This document shows, piece after piece, positions 12,935 to 25,559 of a stretch of DNA of 64,000 nt. The translations under genes were made by a program, and so were the position numbers. The stretch is from Actinomycetota bacterium (GTDB lineage: Bacteria > Actinomycetota > Thermoleophilia > BMS3ABIN01), in contig JACRMB010000005.1 of the NCBI GenBank assembly GCA_016235065.1, positions 73,524-137,523 of the forward strand, written 5' to 3'. Under the pieces are notes generated by a model. The model made no database searches. It saw nothing but the letters and a program-made list of their open reading frames with translations, and was not told the DNA's origin. Positions within the stretch are counted from its first letter, which is position 1. Every line of letters begins with the position of its first letter.

Positions 12935-13225
12935 CTAGCAGCTGCACGATCCCTGCTGCTGGCCCTGGATCACAAAACCTCGGGCGTCAGTGTAATCGAT
13001 GGTAGCGGATTTCAACTGCCGGTTTGCCTCCTTCTCAAGAAACACCTTGAGGCCGTCCAGTTCCAGGATCTCGTCGCCCCTGGCGGCGCTGTCGGCTATG
13101 TCCATAGCCAGTGACGGCCTTCAGCCGCCCGCTGACACAAAAAGCCTTACACCCGCATCAGGCTTTTCTTCCTTGGCCAGTATCTCCTTGAATTTTGTTA
13201 TGCAATTGATAGTAAGGTCCAGCAC
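12935..13225 (-). CDS. HesB/IscA-like selenoprotein with in-frame TGA (Sec35)
   Basis: Reading through one in-frame TGA (13121-13123) gives a 96-residue HesB-like protein: VLDLTINCITKF, then VRLFVSAGG-Sec-RPSLAMDIADSAARGDEI, ending in FVIQGQQQGSCSC. The Sec falls at residue 35, where E. coli IscA has Cys35, and C94-x-C96 matches the IscA C-terminal C-x-C pair. A family of HesB-like selenoproteins is known. A 6-bp hairpin begins 11 bases after the TGA, at bacterial SECIS distance. The GTG start has AAAGGAG 5 bases upstream. It is the third gene of the leftward arsR-acr3 operon. A Cys-to-stop pseudogene is the alternative. Confidence 0.87.
13094..13109 (-). promoter_or_regulatory. SECIS-like hairpin for the HesB-like selenoprotein
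   Basis: On the coding strand GGCTAT and ATAGCC form a perfect 6-bp stem closed by the loop GGAC. The loop begins 17 nt after the TGA codon, inside the 16-37 nt window known for bacterial SECIS elements, and starts with G as that consensus requires. The hairpin lies wholly within the coding sequence. Confidence 0.75.
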
Positions 13226-13286
13226 CGCGACTCCTTTACTCGTTGGTTATACAATCAATATCGGACGCAGGATGAAGCTAAGCGAA

Positions 13287-16548: not shown

Positions 16549-17016
16549 TTAGATGAACAGGCTTACCTTGGCGCCCAAGGCGAATTCCAGGAATGTGGCA
16601 GCGCCACAACTCTTCTCCACCTCGTCGATCAGGTCGTCAGGATTGACACTCATCACCTGCAGCGTCAGTTCACACGGCCATAGCTTGACGCCGGTTTCGG
16701 CGCAGACTTTTATCAGCTCTGGAACTGACGGCTGGTTGGCCTTATGCATCATGCCCTTCATCATCTTCGTCGCCACGGCAGTCATGCCTGGCAGCATGCC
16801 GATGATGTTTGGAACTGGTACCGGCATTGCCGGATTGCCAACCGGCGCAACCTTAAGGTTGGCATACTTCTTTTTATTGACGATATCCAATCCGTAAAAC
16901 GTGAAGAAAATGCCTACCTCAAGATCCATTGCAGCAGCTGTGCTGGCAAGAATGAGAGGCGGGTACGCCATGTCCAGCGTTCCCTTGGAGGCGATAATGG
17001 CTACGCGATCAGCCAT
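16549..17016 (-). CDS. DsrE/DsrF/DrsH-like (DsrE2-type) sulfur-transfer protein
   Basis: The 155-residue product matches the DsrE2-like family: MADRVAIIASKGTLDMAYPPLILASTAAAMDLEVGIFFTFYGL, then a Met-rich central stretch and Cys residues in LIKVCAETGVKLWPCELTLQVM near residue 110-120, the site used by relatives to carry sulfur. Proteins of this type work with TusA and rhodaneses in cytoplasmic sulfur relay. It follows a tusA gene by 6 bases with GAAAGGAAAG as ribosome site, so the two form an operon. Confidence 0.9.
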   Translation of the reverse strand: MADRVAIIASKGTLDMAYPPLILASTAAAMDLEVGIFFTFYGLDIVNKKKYANLKVAPVGNPAMPVPVPNIIGMLPGMTAVATKMMKGMMHKANQPSVPELIKVCAETGVKLWPCELTLQVMSVNPDDLIDEVEKSCGAATFLEFALGAKVSLFI

Positions 17017-17022
17017 CAGATG

Positions 17023-17271
17023 TCACTTTCCTTTCCTGACCCAGAAGGTGAATACCTCTCCGTCTTCGGTTGCGCCAAGGAATTCATGGCCTGCCCTGTT
17101 GGCCCACGCGGGCATGTCGCCCTTCGAACCCGGATCGGTTCCGACGATCTCGAGTACCTGGCCGACTTCCAGCGCGTCCATGGCCTTCTTGGCCTTGACC
17201 ACCGGCATCGGGCAACACAAGCCCTTGACGTCGAGGACTGAATCAGCCTTTACATCGATTCCATCACCCAT
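17023..17271 (-). CDS. TusA-family sulfur-carrier protein, second copy
   Basis: The 82-residue product has VLDVKGLCCPMPVVKAKKAM, with the CPxP sulfur-carrying Cys preceded by a second Cys. The ATG at 17271 sits 6 bases after AAGGAGGA, an excellent ribosome site, so the 35-residue upstream extension of the frame is rejected. Pairing with a DsrE2-type gene is typical of TusA-DsrE sulfur relays in sulfate reducers and sulfur oxidisers. It differs clearly from the TusA at 4845 (CCPMP against KCPMP), suggesting a separate job. Confidence 0.93.
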   Translation of the reverse strand: MGDGIDVKADSVLDVKGLCCPMPVVKAKKAMDALEVGQVLEIVGTDPGSKGDMPAWANRAGHEFLGATEDGEVFTFWVRKGK

Positions 17272-17528
17272 TTGCTCCTCCTTGTAAATTAGATTGCTCT
17301 TTTTCGACGATGGAACCCGTATCCGGGATTCAGATTCAGTCCCATCGCCCTGTCTAAAAAACATAGTGTATCCCACTCGCGGAATAATTTCACAAACCTG
17401 ATCTCTCAGGGATTATTTCTCACAAAATAAAGAGGAATGGCATACAGGTAGTCAGCAGGCGTTTCGGTGAATTAATCCAGCTTATTCGTCAGACAGCCGA
17501 TGATGGCTATCTGAAATCTCTCACAGGC

Positions 17529-21286: not shown

Positions 21287-21340
21287 TGTTGCGGCCTTCC
21301 CTTTCCTTTTTTATGCAGCTTAAGCTAGAATACCAGCAGT

Positions 21341-21781
21341 ATGTTGAATAGACGGTACATAGCGATATTTTTAGGCCTGTTCGCGGTCCTTATGGCGGCT
21401 ATATTGATGGCCGGTTGCGGAGAAGACAGCAAGACTTCAACGGCTGCTTCAGCGCCTCAGTGCAGTCCGGACCAGAAGAGCATCATTCCCGCGCCGAGTG
21501 GAAAACCGCAACACATCTATTTTTTCCGCGATACCTGACCTGCCTGCCAGCAGCAGAAGCCCATCGTCGATGAGCTACAGGAAGAATATAAAGACAAGAT
21601 AGAATTCATCCGGTATGACCTGTCTACCACAGAAGGTTACTGCGAATATCAGTTACTGAAAGTGACGCACATTCCGGCCATGCTGTTTGTTGGCAAGAAC
21701 GGCGACAAGGTAGAGGTCACGGATACCATGCTCCAGAAGCCAGAACTGAAACAGAAACTGGATAATCTGCTGGCGTGGTAA
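21341..21781 (+). CDS. thioredoxin-like lipoprotein selenoprotein with in-frame TGA (Sec66)
   Basis: Reading through the TGA at 21536-21538 yields 146 residues: a signal with lipobox LMAGC26, a Ser/Ala/Pro linker, then a thioredoxin fold with active site FFRDT-Sec-PAC (Sec66, Cys69), EFIRYDLSTTEGY, and cis-Pro motif THIPAMLFVGKNG, ending in LDNLLAW. Reading stops naturally at TAA. The Sec sits exactly at the first Cys of the C-x-x-C motif, and a SECIS-like hairpin lies 19-37 nt downstream. It should face outside the membrane and reduce or exchange thiols. A VKOR oxidase (25119) could be a partner. A nonsense mutation is the alternative, but the conserved downstream frame argues against it. 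Confidence 0.9.
21558..21576 (+). promoter_or_regulatory. SECIS-like hairpin for the thioredoxin-like selenoprotein
   Basis: AGC/GCT and CATC/GATG stack around one C-A mismatch to form a stem closed by the 3-base loop GTC (21566-21568). The loop G is the 28th base after the TGA, inside the 16-37 nt range of bacterial SECIS elements, and is the first loop base as the consensus requires. Confidence 0.65.
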
Positions 21782-21783
21782 TC

Positions 21784-21885
21784 ATGGAGACCGGGGCTGA
21801 AGTCGTGCGGATGGGAGTGATCGGGGTTCTACTTATAGCTGGCGGTGTCGCCCTGGCACTGTACAGCCGCAAGCGTAAAAGCTGA
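21784..21885 (+). CDS. 33-residue single-span membrane peptide
   Basis: An ATG two bases after the selenoprotein stop opens a frame of METGAEVVRMGVIGVLLIAGG, a further hydrophobic run and the basic end YSRKRKS. It predicts one transmembrane helix with a positive cytoplasmic tail. The tight spacing suggests translational coupling to the thioredoxin-like selenoprotein, possibly as a membrane partner. It is too short for family assignment and has no separate ribosome site, so coding is likely but not certain. Confidence 0.55.
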   Translation: METGAEVVRMGVIGVLLIAGGVALALYSRKRKS

Positions 21886-25118: not shown

Positions 25119-25559
25119 ATGAGATATATCCTGATAGCGATAGTATTGCTGGCGATAGCCGGCGCGGTCGATTCCGGGTATGCCCTTAAACAGCACTACG
25201 CCCCGCCTGACGTCTCAGCCTGCGACTACAACGAGACCGTGAGCTGCACAGCTGTGAATCAGAGCGAATATTCAGAAGTGTCCGGGATTCCGGTGGCCGC
25301 CATCGGTATTGCCGGATATTTGATTATTGGCATTCTTGCGGTAATCGCTCTGGCAAAGCCGCAATCCAGCCGGCCGGTTTTCATCCTGCTGGCTCTGGCG
25401 TCGCTCGGGGGGTTCCTGGTGGCACTCACCCTGACTTACATCGAGCTGTTCGTCCTTGAGGCCGTATGCCCGCTCTGCGTCGTCTCTCAGGCTCTTATAT
25501 TCACGATCCTGTTGCTGGCATCGGCTGGCGCCATCAGAAACGGGCTAAAACGAAGATAA
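25119..25559 (+). CDS. VKOR-family thiol oxidase
   Basis: The 146-residue membrane protein has four hydrophobic segments and the VKOR cysteines: loop pair C35/C43 in ACDYNETVSC and the active C-x-x-C C117-PL-C120, plus the conserved Ser/Gly stretch SGIPVAAIG. VKOR reoxidises a DsbA-like partner outside the membrane and passes electrons to quinone. No thioredoxin domain is fused, so a separate partner is needed; the thioredoxin-like selenoprotein at 21341 is a candidate. It ends 12 bases before the convergent YkgJ-type gene. Confidence 0.92.
   Translation: MRYILIAIVLLAIAGAVDSGYALKQHYAPPDVSACDYNETVSCTAVNQSEYSEVSGIPVAAIGIAGYLIIGILAVIALAKPQSSRPVFILLALASLGGFLVALTLTYIELFVLEAVCPLCVVSQALIFTILLLASAGAIRNGLKRR

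Follow-up and report, generated by a model that had tools for sequence, protein, structure and literature searches.

A putative selenocysteine-containing thioredoxin-like lipoprotein with a conserved in-frame TGA and a predicted SECIS element

The ORF at 21341–21781 on the plus strand of the window, i.e., the whole 64,000-nucleotide stretch of DNA that was analysed, very probably encodes a bona fide selenoprotein with a thioredoxin-type role, an estimate that does not extend to its redox partner. The best reading of its product (hereafter Sec-Trx), based on sequence and a structure model, is a predicted outward-facing, membrane-anchored selenol/thiol-disulfide oxidoreductase. New here are a clade that contains only selenocysteine (Sec) at the active site, a conserved Cys41/Cys101 pair and a predicted promoter conserved near the start codon. 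The clade keeps Sec, with no reversion to Cys found, in a protein that is likely exposed outside the membrane, and it therefore offers a tractable case for why selenium is kept outside the membrane.

Organization of the ORF and Its Product

The ORF starts with ATG and encodes 146 amino acids when UGA is read as Sec, followed by a natural TAA stop (21779–21781). It contains a single in-frame TGA, at codon 66 (21536–21538) in the context T-U-P-A-C, which corresponds to the first position of the active site U-P-A-C. The codon of the resolving Cys69 was located at 21545–21547 and the Ile-Pro containing the cis-Pro at residues 111–112. A sequence-only reading of this DNA had described the TGA at residue 66 with the second Cys, a TxIP cis-proline motif and TAA after it, and had also proposed a lipobox. 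The latter was found as M-A-G-C26 (21407–21418) after an N-terminal hydrophobic helix (residues 5–21), and the product thus shows both the hydrophobic segment and the lipobox Cys of bacterial lipoproteins, from which lipidation is predicted. C26 and G27 were invariant in 16/16 family orthologues. Position -3 of the lipobox is Leu in several homologues but Met in the window copy, which counts against the reading as a lipoprotein. The region encoding the thioredoxin fold (residues 57–145; 21509–21775) follows, with the order beta-alpha-beta-alpha-beta-beta-alpha. Sec-Trx would accordingly be lipid-anchored, outward-facing and redox-active. This agrees with the membrane-anchored, outward-facing selenothiol oxidoreductase proposed in the sequence-only reading, with anchoring, orientation and redox activity being predictions from sequence and fold.

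Two further Cys residues, Cys41 (21461–21463) and Cys101 (21641–21643), were invariant across the 16 family orthologues, and neither occurs in the nearest outgroup clade. This suggests a family-specific structural disulfide, in which Cys101 is the likely partner of Cys41.

Conservation of the Sec Codon and Selection Downstream of It

Sec-Trx orthologues (32–74% identical) were detected by the family search in 16 of the 19 same-family genomes, and two same-genus copies sit on deposited Thermoleophilia bacterium MAG contigs. Each of the 16 contains exactly one in-frame TGA, at the same position, together with TGC for Cys69, and none of them has Cys at the Sec position. UGA at this conserved redox position was also found in most relatives in the phylum. 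Three family genomes (G005, G014, and G016; 78–92% complete) showed no orthologue, which speaks against the selenoprotein reading.

Standard annotation would terminate the ORF at the TGA, and upstream of it only a lipoprotein signal is encoded; both would fit a real stop, in which case the locus would be a pseudogene or encode a lipoprotein stub of 65 residues followed by a decayed tail. However, the downstream half was conserved at least as well as the upstream half in the 16 genomes. Downstream of the TGA dN was well below dS, coding constraint was present on both sides, and all pairs tested showed less nonsynonymous change 3′ than 5′ of the TGA. This is the opposite of frame decay, which the sequence-only reading had named as a refutation and of which there was no sign in the related genomes. 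The active-site Cys, the cis-Pro and the C-terminal helix are intact as well, and the stem codons of the hairpin described below are frozen. A pseudogene or stop was rejected on the purifying selection downstream of the TGA, and we regard this explanation as extremely improbable.

SECIS Hairpin

A bacterial SECIS hairpin, AGCCCAUC-GUC-GAUGAGCU, was identified at 21558–21576 on the plus strand, with a 4-bp upper stem, one C/A mismatch and three lower pairs. Its apical GUC (21566–21568) lies 27 nt past the UGA and the pairs span nt 20–38 past the TGA, essentially equal to the 19–37 nt given previously for this hairpin, which is shown to be real. The published bSECIS model describes an apical loop of 3–9 nt with a G among the first two nucleotides of the loop, an upper stem of 4 bp or more, an N-GU-N-N apex with a closing pair, a distance of 16–37 nt from the UGA and an MFE of at most -7.5 kcal/mol (PMC13188914). 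With a C-GUC-G apex, a 3-nt loop, a 4-bp upper stem and a 27-nt spacing the candidate falls within these constraints, and the 48- and 42-nt stretches containing it folded at -10.3 and -10.9 kcal/mol, other pairs included. The comparison with a SECIS model, suggested by the sequence-only reading as a check, was thus positive, and it was complemented by constraint at the codon level and by covariation.

Among the family orthologues, mean normalised codon entropy was 0.156 for codons 73–79 and 0.638 elsewhere (P = 0.0009). The stem codons AAG-CCC-ATC and GAT-GAG showed zero synonymous variation, with change only at the outermost stem codon, and the loop codon Val76 (GTC/GTT/GTG) was the most variable of codons 73–79. 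Across 38 distinct Sec sequences of the phylum the helix covaried, with 16 cells changed on both sides; the covariation score was 0.206 compared to 0.081 ± 0.015 in shuffles and was reached in 0 of 500 shuffles, although kinship among the 38 rows inflates these shuffle statistics. In the same sequences, 79.6% of the helix cells were paired compared to 21–35% in slid controls, the loop began with GU in 36, and in 28 the fourth pair was not formed, through a C/A mismatch or otherwise. No such hairpin was present in the Cys-containing relative L121. The TGA conserved in 16/16 orthologues, the synonymously frozen stem codons and the covariation in distant relatives together place the hairpin beyond chance.

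Sec Machinery and Genetic Code

Sec machinery, whose confirmation had been proposed together with the hairpin, is present in the window genome as selA, selB, selD, and tRNA-Sec (anticodon UCA). On contig 3, selA adjoins selB, with the tRNA-Sec beside both, and the selD frame itself contains a TGA; Sec in SelD is well known. selA was found in 19/19 genomes of the family. Among the sampled window ORFs, TGA served as the stop more often than any other codon (14/33), which shows that the code is not reassigned. Decoding of the TGA by another route than Sec, be it a reassigned code, near-cognate read-through or Trp suppression, has nothing specific in its favour, and besides the ordinary use of TGA as a stop, the position of the TGA exactly at the catalytic Cys, the covarying SECIS and the full Sec machinery in the genome all argue against it. 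Code reassignment was ruled out on the stop usage, and the chance of any such route is very slight.

Fold and Family Assignment

Sec-Trx matched Pfam Thioredoxin (PF00085) with 37.8 bits, above the gathering cut-off of 23.5, and is a thioredoxin by this measure. The AlphaFold2 model was confident (block means of at least 92 from residue 41 on) and placed Sec66 just before the active-site helix (67–82) and Pro112 before the strand 113–117. Foldseek matches were thioredoxins, and the top solved structure was Bacteroides fragilis TrxP (PDB 3hxs/3hyp; TM 0.70 by target), an exported single-domain thioredoxin that differs from Sec-Trx in having Cys instead of Sec, in showing only about 25% identity and in belonging to another phylum. 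Scores lay below those of the TrxA equivalogs (TIGR01068, 35.2 vs. 96.8 bits; NF047697, 34 vs. 140 bits), and no NCBIfam thioredoxin or (seleno)protein model was matched above cut-off. SaoT (NF040730), TUGYCR redoxin (NF053656), TsoX (NF045809), and PDO_seleno_TRX (TIGR02187) are similar in being Sec-capable thioredoxin-fold families, but the matches to them were far below the curated cut-offs and the window protein is thus not a member.

Sec-containing thioredoxins (PF00085, UxxC) are listed among the known prokaryotic selenoproteins in reviews (PMC13188914, PMC9312934), in line with the statement in the sequence-only reading that Sec-x-x-Cys thioredoxins occur. The window subfamily shares with these the thioredoxin fold, Sec as the first residue of UxxC and a bacterial SECIS directly downstream. 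It differs from them in being apparently extracytoplasmic and, by prediction, lipid-anchored, in having U-P-[AVFYL]-C in most copies and an extra conserved Cys pair, and in that every copy of the clade has Sec and scores below all NCBIfam thioredoxin equivalog cut-offs. As judged from its sequence, the window gene encodes a selenoprotein on all the sequence criteria applied, and it is in effect a new subfamily of the already known Sec-containing thioredoxins. Our search of the literature on selenocysteine in Thermoleophilia gave nothing relevant. Since standard annotation would cut the gene to a 65-residue stub and no NCBIfam model rescues it, an outward-facing selenoprotein family is probably hidden in this bacterial group.

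Distribution in the Phylum

Matches to the Sec-Trx family at E ≤ 1e-14 were found in 41 of 396 phylum genomes, most of them with one TGA. One clade gave matches with one TGA and one TAA, and in those loci that were read the TAA is the natural stop at the gene end rather than an internal one. selA was present in 226 of the 396 genomes, but in 40 of the 41 with a family match, and in 29/29 distant genomes tested directly. The remaining genome, G110, has a TGA-containing match without selA at the threshold used and thereby counts against the selenoprotein reading; the missing selA is possibly due to an assembly gap. The match in G110 lies at G110:C27:80783-81187, the genome is 97% complete with selA not found at E ≤ 1e-80, and it shares its genus with the selA-positive G065 and G153.

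A tree of 66 thioredoxin domains, which has few columns, is weakly resolved and contains rows picked by search matches, showed a well supported window clade of 16 domains, all with Sec, grouping with a second all-Sec clade. Homologues with Cys at residue 66, which the sequence-only reading had suggested for comparison, were found only among distant relatives, where L121 (C-G-A-C) and L133 (C-P-P-C) align at the Sec site, and not in the family clade.

Other arrangements were observed in individual relatives. In L120 (G147) and L084 (G180) the Sec-Trx domain follows an apparent rhodanese-like domain within one open frame. In L110–L114 (distant family f12) the Sec-Trx gene adjoins a multihaem cytochrome-like ORF with an in-frame TGA in G-C-T-U-H in 5/5 loci, which matched the known (seleno)protein ExtKL (NF040886) only weakly (49 bits compared to a cut-off of 250); most of these loci contain a second Sec-Trx after the cytochrome-like ORF.

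Promoter and Flanking ORFs

A -10-like TAGAAT is located at 21326–21331 (+), 9 nt before the start codon, and is kept in 16/16 orthologues at 7–11 nt. This sequence conservation suggests that the gene is transcribed from a promoter of its own into an mRNA with a very short leader or none. An operon with the upstream ABC transporter was rejected as a general arrangement, since a minus-strand gene lies between the two in several family loci and Sec-Trx has its own TAGAAT. A 33-codon ORF, METGAEVVRMGVIGVLLIAGGVALALYSRKRKS, is present at 21784–21885 (+), 2 nt past the Sec-Trx stop. By its sequence it resembles a bare LPxTG-type tail or a single-pass mini-protein, and six family loci from three genera have a similar mini-ORF after Sec-Trx.

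Proposed Mechanism and Redox Direction

According to the proposed mechanism, SelB and tRNA-Sec would decode UGA66 as selenocysteine via the stem-loop starting 20 nt downstream, and the product would be exported, anchored by lipid at Cys26 and facing outward. Fold and motif suggest that Sec66, as the selenolate, attacks either a disulfide or some oxidised substrate, with Cys69 as the thiol that resolves the selenenylsulfide; Sec is generally more reactive than the Cys form. Sec-Trx may thereby pass electrons to or from the disulfides of small molecules or extracytoplasmic proteins, most likely through a membrane thiol carrier, either VKOR or a DsbD/CcdA-type protein. The VKOR family protein, to which no thioredoxin is fused, is encoded at 25119–25559 (+), 3.3 kb downstream of Sec-Trx, and four family loci, including the window, keep VKOR about 2.8–6.5 kb downstream; the link is one of proximity only, and the wider neighbourhood is conserved in general. 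The DsbD_TM (DsbD/CcdA-type) protein is encoded elsewhere in the window genome, on another contig.

If Sec-Trx is a selenoprotein, it is possible, although somewhat doubtful, that it acts as an oxidant, i.e., as a DsbA-like partner that is recharged by the nearby VKOR and forms disulfides in exported proteins. The retained VKOR, the active site U-Pro-x-Cys instead of U-Gly-Pro-Cys, and the extra Cys pair, which would suit an oxidising compartment, are consistent with this role. However, VKOR is a neighbour and not part of an operon, the residue before the cis-Pro is Ile, as in thioredoxin, and the genome also contains the DsbD/CcdA-type gene.

We see about an even chance, again given a selenoprotein, that Sec-Trx is a reductant receiving electrons via the DsbD/CcdA-type membrane protein and reducing extracytoplasmic disulfides, peroxides or metal-thiol adducts. 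The DsbD_TM gene is present, although with no direct linkage to Sec-Trx in the window genome, and redox or metal-stress genes (names read from the sequences) accompany distant relatives. In L126, Sec-Trx adjoins a thioredoxin reductase-like gene, and in L115, L116, L122, and L125 (family f24) it lies directly upstream of a CsoR-like repressor and together with cytosolic thioredoxin, cytochrome c-like and copper ATPase-like genes. These neighbours weakly point to the reductive route as the slightly favoured one. TrxP, the best fold match, reportedly serves as an oxidase as well as a reductase (PMC6158253), which is compatible with reduction too. It appears rather unlikely that the family has a dedicated, Sec-only thioredoxin system outside the cytoplasm, in which Sec would be obligatory at this site and Sec-Trx would be the main selenol relay between VKOR or DsbD/CcdA and exported proteins.

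Most of the four f24 loci also contain FmdB-like, thioredoxin, flavin reductase-like and cytochrome c-like genes upstream, and, going by sequence, the neighbourhood may be a gene cluster for metal or sulfur stress.

Other TGA-Containing Loci in the Window

The TGA at 17025 was considered as an internal codon of a TusA-TGA-DsrE2 gene and rejected, as it is the ordinary tusA stop and dsrE2 starts 6 nt later. The tusA and dsrE2-like sulfur-carrier genes are arranged in tandem at 16549–17376 (-). The other TGA-split gene with a hairpin mentioned in the sequence-only reading was recovered as a HesB/IscA-like ORF at 12935–13246 on the minus strand. Its best NCBIfam matches were TIGR00049 and IscA_HesB_Se, both below cut-off, and its TGA, at 13123 in the context S-A-G-G-U, is followed by the hairpin GGCUAU-GGAC-AUAGCC with a GGAC loop.
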